Below the pieces are notes generated by a model. It was not told the DNA's origin and did no database searches. It saw only the letters and a list, made by a program, of their open reading frames with translations. Positions 2,645 through 9,286 of a stretch of 64,000 bases of DNA are shown piece after piece (within the stretch, counting starts at the first letter, position 1; the number at the start of each line of letters is the position of its first letter). The stretch is from the NCBI GenBank assembly GCA_020630955.1, contig JAHDIE010000007.1, forward strand, positions 62,001-126,000. Reading direction: 5' to 3'. This stretch comes from Saprospiraceae bacterium (lineage in GTDB: Bacteria > Bacteroidota > Bacteroidia > Chitinophagales > Saprospiraceae). The position numbers were made by a program, and so were the translations under genes.

Positions 2645-3217
2645 TTATTTTAGTTTGATGTCATATTTGCTTAACAGACCTATAACATTTTCCGCAGAGA
2701 AGCTTGTTTTGTAGATTTTGTTTCGTTCCGGTTCGATTATAAAATTAGAACAATTGCTTAAGTCTAGGTTTGACAAATCTGTGTTATCAAAAGTAGCTCT
2801 TGTGAAATCACAGTTGTCAAATTCAGCTTTCTTCAAGTCACTGTCCGAAAAATCAGTTTCTTCAAAATAACACGAACTAAATACTGAATTCATAATTCGC
2901 ATCCCTTGAAAAGAAGCATGAGCAAAACTGCAGTCATTTGCCTTGAGTGAAAAAAGTAAATTACTGCATTCGTAAAATAGTATGCCCAATAATTTACAAT
3001 GATCAAACTGGCAAGATCGGAATCCGGTATTGATCGTATTGGCCATGGAGATGTCGCATTCAATGAACTTGCAATCTGTAAATTTGATATTTCTTAAATC
3101 CGCTTTTGAAAAGATGCAGTTATGGAAATAACAAGATTCATATTCTTTTCCTGAGATGCGATTTTCAAAATAATTTTGGTTTTCAAAAATTTGCTCAAAT
3201 TGGATATTATCTTCCAT
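2645..3217 (-). CDS. Qnr/McbG-like pentapeptide repeat protein
   Basis: A 190-residue protein made almost entirely of A(D/N)Lxx-type pentapeptide repeats (for example FSKADLRNIKFTDCKF and FDNCDFTRATFDNTDLSNLDL), which fold into a right-handed quadrilateral beta-helix. The C-terminal end (about 145-190, ending GLLSKYDIKLK) resembles the helical dimerisation cap of Qnr/McbG proteins. Those proteins mimic DNA and protect type II topoisomerases from quinolones or microcins. That role is an inference from layout only. Other pentapeptide proteins have unrelated or unknown roles. No signal peptide, so it should be cytoplasmic. Confidence 0.75.
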   Translation of the reverse strand: MEDNIQFEQIFENQNYFENRISGKEYESCYFHNCIFSKADLRNIKFTDCKFIECDISMANTINTGFRSCQFDHCKLLGILFYECSNLLFSLKANDCSFAHASFQGMRIMNSVFSSCYFEETDFSDSDLKKAEFDNCDFTRATFDNTDLSNLDLSNCSNFIIEPERNKIYKTSFSAENVIGLLSKYDIKLK

Positions 3218-3946: not shown

Positions 3947-4136
3947 ATTTTTCCTTTTACCTATTCTTTTGCAAATATGTCTTGGATATTAGCTTGTTCA
4001 CTAAAGTTATCATTCTATTTGAAGTGCTGAAAGTAGAGATCCTCGGTAAAGAAAAACCAATAACATAAAGTGGATTTCTGACTACTTATGCTGTCTTCTA
4101 TCCAATGAATTAGTTCTCGATTTCTCGTTTATATAG

Positions 4137-4154
4137 TTTCCCATTTTTACCCTA
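4137..4154 (+). promoter_or_regulatory. 18-bp operator candidate, copy 1
   Basis: TTTCCCATTTTTACCCTA, identical to 5918-5935. It ends 41 bp before a -7-like box (CAATTTTG, 4196-4203) and lies upstream of the methyltransferase gene at 4247. The second copy has exactly the same 41-bp spacing to its box. The AraC-family regulator encoded between the two copies is the likely binder. Confidence 0.6.
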
Positions 4155-4195
4155 TGTGGTTTCTAAATGATCGTGTTCAATAACTTTAAGCACTG

Positions 4196-4203
4196 CAATT
4201 TTG
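4196..4203 (+). promoter_or_regulatory. -7-like promoter box of the methyltransferase gene
   Basis: CAATTTTG matches the Bacteroidota TAnnTTTG -7 consensus at all but the first base. It lies 43 bp before ATG 4247 and 41 bp after the 18-bp repeat. No TTTG -33 element stands at the usual distance, which fits an activator-dependent promoter. Confidence 0.4.
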
Positions 4204-4246
4204 TACTTAGTTAACTTATTCTAAAAAAAATAAAATTAATTAATAG

Positions 4247-4873
4247 ATGATTAAAAGTAACTTGGTAGAAGAAACACTTCAAATATTACACGACGACGCA
4301 AAAAATGATTATATAAAAATAGCGAAAGGAATGGCCAAGTCAATATTGCGCCCCATCAAGCCGACGGACTTCGAAAATGCTTATCTACCGATTTCAAAAG
4401 CACAAGGAGAACATTTGCATAATCTTATTGTTCAAAATGATTTTCAAAATGTAGTCGAGTTTGGCACCTCATTTGGAATCTCAACAATATATTTGGCGGA
4501 TGCGGTAAGCCAAACGGGCGGAAAGGTAATTACAACAGAGTTGTTAGAAAGTAAGGCAAAAATTGCCAATAAAAATATTGCTCAAGCAGGATTACAGGAT
4601 TTTGTTGAAATAAGAATTGGTGATGCCATGAAGACCTTGAAAAATGAAAATGCTAAAATTGATTTTCTATTTTTAGACGGCTGGAAAGATTTATATTTAC
4701 CCTTGTTTAGAATGTTAGAAACTAATTTTCACAAAGGGACTTTGATATATGCGGACAATATGAATATGGCAGATACCCTGCAATATTATAATTATGTTCA
4801 AGGAAATTCCAATACTTATACATCAAAATTGATAGGTGGAGGGAAGGCGATGCTTACTTCTTTGGCTGCATAA
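4247..4873 (+). CDS. Class I SAM-dependent methyltransferase (O-methyltransferase-like)
   Basis: A 208-residue cytoplasmic enzyme with the Rossmann-type SAM-binding motif VVEFGTSFGIS (about 69-79), an acidic residue after strand 2 (TTELL, about 97-100) and the strand-4 motif FLFLDGW. This pattern fits the O-methyltransferase / Methyltransf_24 group. The substrate is unknown. The gene is upstream of the AraC regulator (156-bp gap) and has the same 18-bp upstream site as the operon at 6014. It is therefore probably controlled together with that operon. Confidence 0.78.
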   Translation: MIKSNLVEETLQILHDDAKNDYIKIAKGMAKSILRPIKPTDFENAYLPISKAQGEHLHNLIVQNDFQNVVEFGTSFGISTIYLADAVSQTGGKVITTELLESKAKIANKNIAQAGLQDFVEIRIGDAMKTLKNENAKIDFLFLDGWKDLYLPLFRMLETNFHKGTLIYADNMNMADTLQYYNYVQGNSNTYTSKLIGGGKAMLTSLAA

Positions 4874-5029
4874 GATATTTGTGAATTTAAAAACAATAAA
4901 TGAATCTCAGAGGTTGAAATGATATGGCTGCTTTATTCTGGATAAAGGTATCGTCAAATCCTTTGTTAATTATTAAAATAGTATCTAGCTCAATGCTGAA
5001 AGCTCAGTAATTATTGATTTAATGGTATA

Positions 5030-5914
5030 ATGGTTAAGAAGTTTAAAGAAATTAAATTTGAAAATAAAAATTCAAAGGAGTCTCGTTTTGATATCGTTCA
5101 ATTTGAGGAATTGTTGAAGCGAAAGCCAATGGATCATAGTCAATTTGAATTTCACAAACTTTCTTTTTACGTGTTTTTTTTATGTACAAAAAACAAAGGG
5201 CTGTATAACATAAACTTTAAAGATTATACTTTCCAAAAGGGAACTTTATTTACTCTGCGTAAAGATAACATCCATAAATTTTATGAAAGTAATGCTGAGG
5301 GTTTACTTTTACTATTCACAGAGGATTTTATCCTAAGTCATGCTAATCCAACAGAGTCAGCAAAGACCTTTTTGCTTTTTAATGAGTTACTCGCCTCACC
5401 AAAGACTCAGTTAGACGATAGTAAGTATAATGAGCTTATGGAGTTGATTTCCTTAATCAAGCAGGAGTATTTTGATGTCAGAGATGACTATTCAGTTAAT
5501 ATCATCAGAAACCTAATCCAGGTTATAATCGGGAAATTGTATCGAGCTAAATCAAAAGACCAACTTGATCTTGCGAACAGGAAATATTTGAAATTATTTT
5601 TGGATTTGCAGGATCGAATAGAGCAAGAGTGTTTAAGTAATAAGCAGGTATCCTATTATGCGAAAAGTCTAGGAGTAACCAGTAAAACCTTGAATAATGT
5701 TACTCAAAGCATTTTGCATAAATCTACAAAGGCATTGATCAATGATATTGTGATAATCCAATCAAAGAGAATGATTATTAATTCAGAAGCTTCACTGACT
5801 GAAATAGCTTATCAAGTTGGCTTTGATGAGCCCACCAATTTTTTTAAGTACTTTAGGAAGTATACAGGAGTATCTCCTAGTCAATTTAGAACTCAATACC
5901 GTTCCAAAGGATAA
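5030..5914 (+). CDS. AraC family transcriptional regulator
   Basis: A 294-residue regulator. The N-terminal half (about 40-110) looks like a cupin sensor (FQKGTLFTLRKDNIHKF). The C-terminal 100 residues carry the two helix-turn-helices of the AraC/XylS family: VSYYAKSLGVTSKTLNNV, then LTEIAYQVGFDEPTNFFKYF with the family signature GVSPSQFR. It is flanked by two units (4247 and 6014) that share an identical 18-bp upstream element, making it the natural candidate activator of both. No copy of that element precedes its own gene. Confidence 0.88.
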   Translation: MVKKFKEIKFENKNSKESRFDIVQFEELLKRKPMDHSQFEFHKLSFYVFFLCTKNKGLYNINFKDYTFQKGTLFTLRKDNIHKFYESNAEGLLLLFTEDFILSHANPTESAKTFLLFNELLASPKTQLDDSKYNELMELISLIKQEYFDVRDDYSVNIIRNLIQVIIGKLYRAKSKDQLDLANRKYLKLFLDLQDRIEQECLSNKQVSYYAKSLGVTSKTLNNVTQSILHKSTKALINDIVIIQSKRMIINSEASLTEIAYQVGFDEPTNFFKYFRKYTGVSPSQFRTQYRSKG

Positions 5915-5917
5915 TAA

Positions 5918-5935
5918 TTTCCCATTTTTACCCTA
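5918..5935 (+). promoter_or_regulatory. 18-bp operator candidate, copy 2
   Basis: TTTCCCATTTTTACCCTA, identical to 4137-4154. It begins 3 bp after the AraC gene's stop and ends 41 bp before a TACTTTTG box (5977-5984), upstream of the SnoaL operon. Identity over 18 bp plus identical spacing to the promoter box argues for a regulatory site. Confidence 0.62.
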
Positions 5936-5976
5936 ATTAGATTGTTTTTAATCTGAACCTACTGTAGTCACTAAGC

Positions 5977-5984
5977 TACTTTTG
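5977..5984 (+). promoter_or_regulatory. -7 box of the SnoaL operon promoter
   Basis: TACTTTTG is a full match to TAnnTTTG, 29 bp before ATG 6014. There is no TTTG about 19 bp upstream, so activation from the 18-bp site at 5918-5935 would make sense. Confidence 0.5.
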
Positions 5985-6013
5985 TTGTATTCAATAATAA
6001 AAATTAGATTGTT

Positions 6014-6421
6014 ATGACAAACAAAGAAGCGGTCCTCTCTTTTTACGAAAAAGCTCTAACTGTAAATGATGAAACAACACCAGAAGCTGTTCTTTCCAAT
6101 ATCTTGTTAGATGGCTTTGTTTCCAAAGGTTCAGTAGAATCAAAAACCAAAGAACAATTGATTGGTCAACTTGGATTCTTTTGGAAATTAATTCCAAATC
6201 TTAAATGGTTACCTCAAGAAATTATTTCCGAAGGAAACAAATTTGTAGTCAGAAGCACTGCATCGGGAAATCCCAACGGAGAATTTATGGGCCTTCCAAC
6301 AGATGGTTCAAAGTCGTTTATGATTATGACGATTGATATCCACACCGTTGTAGATGGGAAAATACAAGAAGTTCATCATTTAGAAGACTGGGGTACAGCT
6401 ATGAAACAATTGAAGTCATGA
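6014..6421 (+). CDS. SnoaL-like NTF2-fold protein (cytoplasmic)
   Basis: A 135-residue protein with the features of the SnoaL/NTF2-like superfamily: an N-terminal helix (NKEAVLSFYEKAL), a central LIGQLGFFWKLIPNLKW segment, FVVRSTASGNPNGEFMGLP, and a closing DGKIQEVHHLEDWGTAMKQL strand and helix. This is the ester-cyclase-like pattern in which a small cup binds a hydrophobic ligand. No catalytic role can be assigned. First gene of a four-gene operon; its stop overlaps the next start (ATGA at 6418-6421). Confidence 0.75.
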   Translation: MTNKEAVLSFYEKALTVNDETTPEAVLSNILLDGFVSKGSVESKTKEQLIGQLGFFWKLIPNLKWLPQEIISEGNKFVVRSTASGNPNGEFMGLPTDGSKSFMIMTIDIHTVVDGKIQEVHHLEDWGTAMKQLKS

Positions 6422-6957
6422 GAGCAACATTAATTACACTTTGGTTTTCTTTTTTGCTTCTTTTTGTAGGATGTGATCAAAGCAATAATGAGCAAATAAA
6501 AATCGAAAAAAATAATCAAAATAATAAAGAGCTTAAAATGGAAATACAATCAAAAGCAACCTTAGATGTTGCGATGAAATTTATGGATGCTATGGGTAAA
6601 GGAGATAAGGATTCGATGAATCTACTCATGCATAAAGATATGGTCTGGCAAAATGCTGGGGATTCTCGAGTGCCATGGATTGGTCCTTGGGAAGGTAAGG
6701 AAACTATATTAAATGACTTCTTGCCTAAATTTGGAGCAGGTTTTAAAACCATAAAATGGGAACCGAATGATGCCTTTGCGCAAGGGGATACCGCTGCTTT
6801 TTTTGGTCAGATGATTGGCGAATTAAGCCATTCCAATGCCCAAACCAAGGAATTCACATATGCGCTTCGAGTAAAAGTGAAGGATGGTCAAGTAATTTTA
6901 TGGAATTGGTTTGAAGATAGTTTTGAAGTTTCGAGAGCATTTCATGATAAAAATTAA
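6418..6957 (+). CDS. SnoaL/NTF2-fold lipoprotein
   Basis: A 179-residue lipoprotein: hydrophobic residues 5-17 and a lipobox ending in Cys19, then an Asn/Lys-rich linker to about residue 42. The rest is a second SnoaL-like NTF2 domain (DVAMKFMDAMGKGDKDSMN, MHKDMVWQN, WEGKETILNDF, and a C-terminal DGQVILWNWFEDSFEV). Translationally coupled to the preceding SnoaL gene by a 4-bp overlap. A cytoplasmic and an exported version of the same fold in one operon suggests handling of one ligand on both sides of the inner membrane. That is inference. Confidence 0.75.
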   Translation: MRATLITLWFSFLLLFVGCDQSNNEQIKIEKNNQNNKELKMEIQSKATLDVAMKFMDAMGKGDKDSMNLLMHKDMVWQNAGDSRVPWIGPWEGKETILNDFLPKFGAGFKTIKWEPNDAFAQGDTAAFFGQMIGELSHSNAQTKEFTYALRVKVKDGQVILWNWFEDSFEVSRAFHDKN

Positions 6958-6967
6958 TCGCTAAAAA

Positions 6968-7372
6968 ATGATGAAATCGAAAATACCACTTTGGGTAAAT
7001 ATTATGCAGGTTTTGTTGATTCTAATTATGATAGGACAAGTTTACATGTATTTTTTTAATCATCAAATGATGGCAGATACAGGTGTAGTTGTTGAAGGAA
7101 GTCCGATGCTTAATTTGGTTTATGAGATGGGAGCAAGGACTTTGGTTATGGTTATTGCATCTATTTTTGTAATCATTACTCAAGACCCAAAACAATATCT
7201 AGTTGTCTTACTCATGAATGTTTTTCGAGAGAGTTTTGAGATGATTATTGATCCTTTGTATCCTGTATTAAATGCACCTGCTACACCACCTGTAGACTTT
7301 GGAATTCATGTGTTAATTGTCGCTATTGAAATTTTAGCCCTAGTGACTGTTTTTAGAAAAATTAAAAATTAA
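6968..7372 (+). CDS. Four-helix membrane protein in SnoaL operon
   Basis: A 134-residue integral membrane protein with about four hydrophobic segments (8-27, 47-66, 71-85 and 108-127). No cofactor motif is seen and I do not recognise a named family with certainty. It follows the SnoaL lipoprotein by 10 bp and precedes the next lipoprotein by 3 bp, so all four genes must be cotranscribed. Two adjacent starts (6968 and 6971) are possible. Confidence 0.65.
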   Translation: MMKSKIPLWVNIMQVLLILIMIGQVYMYFFNHQMMADTGVVVEGSPMLNLVYEMGARTLVMVIASIFVIITQDPKQYLVVLLMNVFRESFEMIIDPLYPVLNAPATPPVDFGIHVLIVAIEILALVTVFRKIKN

Positions 7373-7375
7373 AAA

Positions 7376-7921
7376 ATGAAATTGAATAAAATATTTTATA
7401 TACTATGTTTTGGTCTTCTTTCAATTGTTTCTTGTACAGAAGAAGAGGACACAACACCGCTGAGTGAAGGAGTAAATATTACTTTAAGAAATACTCTACA
7501 AGACCCAAATGAACCAGAAGTAACTTATCCTAGTTTATTTGGTCAAGCGGATGATGCATATGATGAATTTGCAACACTGTCTAATTCTTCAGCAGAATTC
7601 CCAACTGCTCTAGCGCAAGATGGTACACCATTTGGTAACTTGAATGGCTTATATAATATTGATCTCACTGAACAGAGCATTAATTTTTCTGTTTTACCAA
7701 CCGAGGCTGACCCATTTTGGTCAAATGTTTTTGGATTATTTCCATCAGGTAAAACTGATAGATATTACTTTACTTTTTCAGAAGCACATAACATTACAGG
7801 CTTTACCAGTAATAATGATGCATTGAATGTCAGAATTGATGGTGAAAAAGTGATTGTTGTTGAACTTTCAGAAGGTTATGACTTGCAGCCAGGAGTTAGC
7901 TTTTTTATTGATTTGAAATAA
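7376..7921 (+). CDS. Lipoprotein of unknown function, last gene of SnoaL operon
   Basis: A 181-residue protein with a lipoprotein signal ending in Cys20 and an acidic segment directly after the Cys (TEEEDTTPL). Acidic residues there often mark surface or outer-membrane lipoproteins in Bacteroidota. The mature part is predicted beta-rich and acidic. I cannot name a family. It is closely linked (3 bp) to the membrane-protein gene and is followed by a strong terminator, closing the operon. Confidence 0.65.
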   Translation: MKLNKIFYILCFGLLSIVSCTEEEDTTPLSEGVNITLRNTLQDPNEPEVTYPSLFGQADDAYDEFATLSNSSAEFPTALAQDGTPFGNLNGLYNIDLTEQSINFSVLPTEADPFWSNVFGLFPSGKTDRYYFTFSEAHNITGFTSNNDALNVRIDGEKVIVVELSEGYDLQPGVSFFIDLK

Positions 7922-7963
7922 TAGAATACGCTAGTTAACTCCGATTCCAGTAATGGAATAAAT

Positions 7964-8008
7964 AAAAAACTACAATTTTATCTGGCTCTGATAAATTGTA
8001 GTTTTTTA
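7964..8008 (+). terminator. Rho-independent terminator of the SnoaL operon
   Basis: Left arm AAAAAACTACAATTTTATC and right arm GATAAATTGTAGTTTTTT pair over 18 bp with one bulged base and a 7-nt loop. The A-rich start and T-rich end let it work in both directions. Confidence 0.8.
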
Positions 8009-8134
8009 TTTTAGATGGTAGAGGATTCAATTTTAGAAATTCAATGCTATTTACATTGAAAGGATCATTGAAATCTATGATAGTTGGTTTTTTCGTGCAA
8101 ACAAAATTAGACAGAAATCGTATGTTTGTTTTTA

Positions 8135-9286
8135 ATGTTTCCAAATTTTAATATTTATTCTACCCCTTTACTAATTCTTGTAATACAAGGTCTTATTCTA
8201 GTATGTATGTTGTTGTTAAAGGCAAAACGACTTCAAGATATTTCTAGTTTGATTTTAGCAGTTTTATTATTAGTTACCTGTTATCATAGAACAACTTATA
8301 CGATTGGTTTTTTAGGGTGGTATGATACATTTAGAAATACAAAGATTAACTACTATCTCATTCCATTGGTTTTAAGCATTGGTCCTTTAATTTTATTTTA
8401 CATAAAATCAATTGGAGTCAAAGATTTTAGAATGACCAAATGGAACTATTTTCATTTTGCACCTCTATTTTTGTTCGTGATTTATAGATTGATTTTATTA
8501 ATTTATGACAGTAACCAAGATGGTTATGCCGAGACTCAAAATGGTATTTTGATGCAAAGGGGCATTGAGCATTTGGGTGAGCTATTTAATATCATTTTTG
8601 CAGTTCATTTATTTATTTATTTAGTATTATCATTTATTTCTTATTATCAAATTAGGCGTCACTTAGAAAATCATTTTTCAAATACATATAAATTTGAATT
8701 AAAGTGGTTAAGAAATTTTTTAGTAGTCTTTAGTGTTTTGTTTGTGTATGATGTTATTCAATTCTTTATTGAAAGTGTTGTAGTTGATTTGCACTGGACT
8801 GAAGAGTGGTGGTTTCAGTTTTTCTCTTTGTTGGTGGTCTTATATGTTGGTATTAAAGGTTATTTTACTCCTATAGAAAATCTACCTCTATTGGATGCAG
8901 ACATATTTGCAGATAATATTTTAAAAGGAGAAAATGCTTCAAAATCGGAGTTACAAAAGCAAATAGTGGTAATTAGAAACACTATTGAAAAGGATCAATT
9001 ATACTTGGATCCAAATCTTAGTTTAACAAAATTAGCTCATGCCTCAAATCTTGCTCCTTCTCAGTTGTCACTTGCAATTAATAAGGGCTTAAATAGAAAC
9101 TTCAATGAATTTATAAATGCTTATAGGGTTTCAATAGTTAAGCAAAATTTGCAAGATGAAAAATTTTCTCACTTGTCTATTTTAGCCATTGCTTTTGATG
9201 CTGGTTTTAATAGTAAGGCTACATTCAATAGAGTATTTAAAAAAATTGATGGTAATCCTCCTTCCTTTTATAGAAAGCGGAAATAA
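8135..9286 (+). CDS. Membrane-anchored AraC family regulator
   Basis: A 383-residue protein starting at ATG 8135 (a TTG three codons upstream is possible). Residues 1-250 contain about seven hydrophobic segments, a 7TM-like sensor region. The C-terminal 100 residues are an AraC-type DNA-binding domain (LSLTKLAHASNLAPSQLSLAIN; then SILAIAFDAGFNSKATFNRVFKK and GNPPSFYRKR). Such membrane AraC proteins are frequent in Bacteroidota and respond to unknown signals. The neighbouring DUF2807 gene downstream is a possible target. TATGTTTG at 8121-8128 resembles a -7 box but overlaps the start region. Confidence 0.82.
   Translation: MFPNFNIYSTPLLILVIQGLILVCMLLLKAKRLQDISSLILAVLLLVTCYHRTTYTIGFLGWYDTFRNTKINYYLIPLVLSIGPLILFYIKSIGVKDFRMTKWNYFHFAPLFLFVIYRLILLIYDSNQDGYAETQNGILMQRGIEHLGELFNIIFAVHLFIYLVLSFISYYQIRRHLENHFSNTYKFELKWLRNFLVVFSVLFVYDVIQFFIESVVVDLHWTEEWWFQFFSLLVVLYVGIKGYFTPIENLPLLDADIFADNILKGENASKSELQKQIVVIRNTIEKDQLYLDPNLSLTKLAHASNLAPSQLSLAINKGLNRNFNEFINAYRVSIVKQNLQDEKFSHLSILAIAFDAGFNSKATFNRVFKKIDGNPPSFYRKRK

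Follow-up and report, generated by a model that had tools for sequence, protein, structure and literature searches.

Two described systems are close to the locus studied here. In Escherichia coli, the binding of AraC at araI2 directly recruits RNA polymerase, and the protein both activates and, without arabinose, represses by looping (PMC4760080, in the part of the text available to us). In Bacteroides, direct-repeat operators with a spacing of 21 bp have been predicted for RhaR, and the spacing is 21 bp on average for hybrid two-component regulators (available parts of PMC3870299 and PMC3878776). Bacteroidota promoters are described as a TAnnTTTG box combined with a TTTG at -33, and the -33 motif was not identified in F. 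johnsoniae, according to the accessible portion of the source (PMC7366714). We analyzed a window, i.e., the whole stretch of 64,000 nucleotides, from a Saprospiraceae bacterium, for which a preliminary description had proposed a small and seemingly undescribed regulon. Our searches of the open PubMed Central literature turned up neither the regulon nor its site or targets, and the first 16 bases of the repeated 18-bp element matched none of the open PubMed Central papers searched. The novelty is nevertheless partial: because 21-bp direct-repeat operators of AraC type have already been published for Bacteroides, in the parts of those papers at hand, the regulon is real and new in detail, but its control principle is known.

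The 18-mer TTTCCCATTTTTACCCTA is present without mismatch at 4137-4154 and at 5918-5935, the latter copy lying 3 bp past the stop of the araC gene. Each copy is followed, after 41 bp, by a -7-like box, as the preliminary description had also noted. The box before the SnoaL gene, TACTTTTG at 5977-5984, matches the TAnnTTTG of sigma-ABfr, and the one before the methyltransferase gene, CAATTTTG at 4196-4203, differs from it at one base. The reported lack of a -33 TTTG at either promoter holds as well: the TTTG of the -7 box is the only one in 4040-4246 and in 5915-6013, and no sigma-ABfr TTTG near -33 was found in 4040-4195 or 5915-5976. A generic sigma-70 promoter scan gave a signal no higher than in shuffles. 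The genes around the copies are those announced from the sequence, and all features of the two units are on the forward strand. The first unit would comprise an O-methyltransferase-like gene (4247-4873; Pfam PF01596, 3.7e-14) and the AraC-family regulator (5030-5914). The second would comprise a SnoaL-like protein (6014-6421; PF07366, 1.4e-14), a SnoaL_2 lipoprotein (6418-6957; PF12680, 1.1e-11, with a lipobox recognized by eye), a small membrane protein of no clear Pfam family (6968-7372), and a lipoprotein of no Pfam family (7376-7921). The last two proteins recur in the clusters described below and had no Pfam match at 0.001. An A/T-rich hairpin followed by a T run (7960-8011; MFE -19.5 kcal/mol, z -7.66) probably terminates the SnoaL unit; it is not among the matches of a consensus terminator scan, which requires 3 G-C pairs.

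The repeated 18-mer is a real element and not a product of chance. Genome-wide (3.97 Mb, 95 contigs), two copies are exact, none has one mismatch, one has two, and nine have three. The total of 12 matches at up to three mismatches is about that of a reversed-pattern control (13). When the window was shuffled and three mismatches were allowed, the mean was 0.19 matches and 2 of the 100 shuffles gave two, but both real copies are exact. A chance origin was thus rejected by the shuffles, by the genome search, and by the model and phylum-wide pattern searches presented below. The presence of two identical 18-mers in one place could also suggest a recent duplication or the scar of a mobile element, without regulatory role. 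We rejected mobile or duplicated DNA as the source because identity between the copies ends at either edge of the 18-mer. Moreover, the element is present in two families, Saprospiraceae and Flavobacteriaceae, where its spacing is constant and its flanks differ, and no scatter of copies is seen across the genomes of the genus, which leaves this explanation with a negligible probability.

The element turned out to be larger than proposed. Each 18-mer holds an internal direct repeat, read from the sequence as TTTCCCA-N3-TTACCCT with a 10-bp step. Downstream of the aligned 18-mers there is a looser second copy, and then TAnnTTTG. Among 60 sites chosen by their match to the 18-mer alone, an AYC is found at +21 in 55, vs 14 at the next-best offset. 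The 18-mer therefore stands as a real repeated element, but it is only the upstream half (I1) of a predicted tandem operator made of two half-sites in the same direction with a period of 21 bp. In the window, the second half-sites (I2), both 21 bp 3' of I1, are at 4158-4175 and 5939-5956. The former holds little beyond an ATC core and is weak taken alone, and sites comparable to its operator precede the methyltransferase in other loci. The distance to the promoter box is nearly constant: nAnnTTTG occurs at a gap of 40 or 41 bp from I1 in 52 of the 60 sites, whose selection used neither the box nor I2. The full TAnnTTTG occurs at gap 40 in 20 sites and at gap 41 in 21, with only two occurrences elsewhere in the scanned tails, and the stretch between I2 and the box measures 19-20 bp. 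The distance from the araC stop to the start of I1 is more variable (0-10 bp in 26 of 61 sites, 11-50 bp in 21, farther in 14), in a set chosen on I1, I2, and box jointly. In one clade-B locus (L018:2364-2410), the second half-site TTTCTCATTCTTACCATT, 21 bp on, is almost as good as the first; the row of this locus in the 45-site alignment is anchored on its I2.

The PBAD sequence that served for comparison with E. coli is present in 5348 of 5426 genomes of that species. In PBAD, the I1-I2 period is 21 bp, I2 ends 20 bp before the -10 box, and I1 starts 58 bp before it; in the same 17-bp frame, the values here are 21, 19, and 57 bp. Both systems have tandem direct-repeat half-sites with the same period, an I2 about 20 bp from the -10/-7 box, which would place the promoter-proximal half-site at or beside -35/-33, and a protein joining a RhaR/AraC-type regulatory domain to a DNA-binding domain with two helix-turn-helix motifs. 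They differ in that the box here is the TAnnTTTG of Bacteroidota, the distances are shorter by one bp at gap 41 and by two at gap 40, and the targets are SnoaL and methyltransferase genes. We claim only the geometry as shared, since the identities with araI1 (11 and 12 of 17 positions) are not significant: 6.4% of shuffles reach at least 11. The Bacteroides RhaR and hybrid two-component operators are closer in taxonomy, being direct repeats of about 21 bp in the same phylum, but they involve other proteins and site letters, their targets serve sugar or polysaccharide use, and the available parts of PMC3870299 and PMC3878776 do not state a constant spacing relative to a -7 box.

We consider it very probable that the predicted I1-I2 operator is bound by a dimer of the AraC protein encoded at 5030-5914, which would replace the -33 element and activate both units. 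The dimer would bind I1 and the weaker I2. Since I2 covers approximately the -33 place, the bound protein would take this position and contact RNA polymerase, as AraC does on araI1-I2. It would then switch on the methyltransferase-araC unit, in a positive feedback loop, and the unit encoding the SnoaL protein, the SnoaL lipoprotein, the membrane protein, and the lipoprotein. The positional activation put forward in the preliminary description agrees with the two units, the near-constant spacing, and the co-occurrence with araC across families. The conserved operators, spacing, and -7 boxes define a set of likely activator-dependent Bacteroidota promoters. To our knowledge, there are few accounts of how activators act at promoters of this phylum in which no -33 element can be recognised.

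The regulator itself has the expected architecture. Its C-terminal part is a double helix-turn-helix domain (HTH_18, 6.8e-19, 68.4 bits vs a cut-off of 33.6), whose helices span residues 207-290 of the predicted structure (pLDDT 86.1) and match the fold of AraC-type DNA-binding domains, among them MarA bound to DNA (Z 13.7, 2.3 A over 107 residues). The N-terminal part is a cupin-like domain close to the regulatory domain of RhaR (Z 18.8, 2.4 A over 156 residues), with the Pfam AraC_binding family falling just short of its cut-off (20.2 vs 21.1 bits). The top NCBIfam match is that of the HpaA-type regulators (TIGR02297, residues 41-289), at 89.6 bits vs a curated cut-off of 274.65; the protein is hence outside this equivalog, and its neighbours differ, being SnoaL and methyltransferase genes. 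The RhaR-like domain would respond to a small molecule. We guess that this is an aromatic or polyketide-like compound because the partners are SnoaL and methyltransferase proteins.

If this protein reads the site, the two should be found together, and this is what was observed when relatives were searched starting from the protein. Of the 35 loci retrieved by similarity to the AraC protein (the window, L014, L016-L021, and L043-L069), 32 have some version of I1 close to araC, and L049, L050, and L053 lack it. This set excludes L015, which has the site letters of L045 and was taken as the same locus, L026, where a contig end leaves a fragment of 86 residues, same-genus matches below 35% identity, and L070-L073. 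The AraC protein search gave 27 named relatives with 48-67% identity, from Saprospiraceae, Chitinophagales, Tenacibaculum, Aquimarina, Lacinutrix, Allomuricauda, and unplaced Bacteroidetes bins, while four weaker matches were not used; the loci of the same genus have 43-65% identity. In a larger set of 64 distinct AraC relatives (two of 66 rows, with less than 28% identity, were dropped), 60 have an I1 match of at least 13/18 between 5 bp before and 400 bp after the araC stop, vs 53 of 1280 mononucleotide shuffles. As these 64 include relatives reached via operator matches, 32/35 is the cleaner figure. The four below the threshold are L049, L053, L136, and L159, and the sequence model still finds a site in the last two. 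A recurrent arrangement runs from an operator through methyltransferase and araC to a second operator, and then to SnoaL, SnoaL lipoprotein, membrane protein, and lipoprotein; many loci are partial. One Aquimarina locus (L057:3087-5858) carries a closely spaced pair of araC paralogues from this clade, and downstream of each there is a separate operator.

The converse search, starting from the motif, gave a concordant picture. We built a sequence-only model (R1) from 37 of 45 sites, omitting the two L058 sites and six sister-clade sites. In this genome, it scored the two sites at 45.7 and 31.9 bits, the next match being at 15.4. Across 298 genomes of the family, with 16 candidates scored per genome, it had 69 matches in 45 genomes at E <=0.001. 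These are on 55 contigs, of which 14 were taken as model-building contigs and 41 as new, although one of the latter (G416:C324) may be the L058 contig that the protein search had yielded. An AraC relative (29-63% identity) lies within 1.5 kb of the match in 29 of the 41 new contigs, and in five more the only cluster gene within this distance is of the SnoaL, methyltransferase, or membrane type. In contrast, none of the 31 control loci around noise matches has any of the six query proteins; the controls are from this genus only and span about 3 kb, and trimming the test stretches to 1.5 kb per side left the counts unchanged. The seven remaining contigs (L141, L142, L144, L151, L156, L157, and L165) have no cluster gene; in two of them, L141 and L165, the match lies before a member of the family found after clade-C operators. 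When the pattern of I1 plus box was searched across the phylum, it occurred at three places in 3 of 395 genomes (none for the reversed control), and all three, including the window, adjoin araC and SnoaL.

These counts also bear on whether the nearby araC is a bystander, the site being read by another regulator such as the second AraC-like gene, which is present 2 kb downstream (8126-9286). No relative of this gene was found in the available flanks of the other loci, where the 5030-5914 clade is always present, in loci that were chosen by the 5030-5914 protein. The contigs chosen by motif point the same way, with 29 of 41 carrying the 5030-5914 type, and the letters of the site shift with the clade of this protein. 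We regard this alternative as highly improbable.

The operators fall into two classes according to the gene that follows. When a SnoaL-type gene is the next one parsed, the box starts with TA in all 32 rows (one a duplicate; two boxes end in TTTA), whereas it starts with C or G in 11 of the 13 operators followed by a methyltransferase. The next-gene set required the A and most of the TTTG in the box and left the first base free; it has 83 rows, including two duplicates (L122/L140 and L112/L172), and 28 rows lack a matched next gene, 13 of them having no parsed ORF start. The operator is followed by the methyltransferase and then araC in seven loci (the window, L014, L043, L044, L045, L047, and L067), and lies directly before araC in three (L051, L052, and L058), which suggests positive feedback. 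In addition, a third operator-like site in L137 (4432-4497) is followed by a gene whose product resembles PycTM, a Pycsar effector domain, though below the threshold (25.3 vs 27.2 bits).

The AraC protein might bind I1-I2 and yet mainly repress, or loop I1 to a distant site, as arabinose-free AraC does. Two operators 1.8 kb apart could form a loop, and the E. coli protein performs both activation and looping repression (PMC4760080, available part). However, the box is on the polymerase side at a fixed 40-41 bp in the 52 sites mentioned above, I2 stops 19-20 bp before it and leaves it free, and the C or G at the start of the methyltransferase boxes would suit a need for an activator. As for looping, 19 of 32 loci have a single operator, so that a pair is not needed, even if contig ends may conceal some. 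Repression thus seems improbable, and activation from I1-I2 is the reading that we retain.

Finally, the letters of the site vary with the AraC clade, being ACCCTA, ACAGTC, or TGTC. Two clades are apart from the clade-A side in the AraC tree: B, with 9 proteins and the site ACAGTC, and C, with 11 proteins including L136 and TGTC in most sites. L138 is on the clade-A side and yet has a B-like CCAGTA site, likely a second origin. By analogy with MarA and AraC, the first helix-turn-helix would read the upstream half of the operator. An arginine at position 223, in the first recognition helix, goes with [T/A]GTC at the 5' end of the site in 9 of 9 proteins, with GTC present in none of the 52 others (the L136 site in this count was taken from the next-gene set). 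The predicted pairing of Arg223 with GTC is a lead and not a proof, because clade C is a single branch. Residue 272 in the second helix-turn-helix was considered as a reader of ACCCTA vs ACAGTC, since it is F in 40 of 40 clade-A proteins and Y in 7 of 10 CAGT proteins, and was rejected because the other three CAGT proteins retain F. Since protein and site vary in step among the three clades, the recognition code lends itself to direct testing. A broader and rather speculative possibility is that these are activators whose operator fully replaces the -33 element, polymerase reaching the -7 box only with an AraC dimer fixed 40-41 bp away; the weak (C/G)AnnTTTG on the araC unit would delay feedback behind the effector unit, and swaps of a few recognition-helix residues, matched by changes in the half-site, would insulate the paralogous clades.

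Several observations concern other proteins. A family of about 350 residues follows the clade-C type operators in ten loci, all ten alike (L136, L141, L143, L147, L148, L149, L158, L165, L167, and L168). A CotH-like nature of this target was a guess that we dropped, with no Pfam match in the two proteins scanned (L143 and L168). In the window, the regulon links two proteins of no known family to SnoaL and methyltransferase enzymes. One of them, the lipoprotein at 7376-7921, has a confident, beta-rich model (pLDDT 87.5); a spondin-like fold was rejected for it, with no Pfam match, no PDB match at E <=0.001, and a best VIA match at Z 4.4. The second AraC-like gene (8126-9286), directly after the regulon, encodes a hydrophobic N-terminal half and an HTH_18 C-terminus. 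On the reverse strand, the translation of an ORF at 2645-3217 shows, by eye, a pentapeptide-like repeat pattern.
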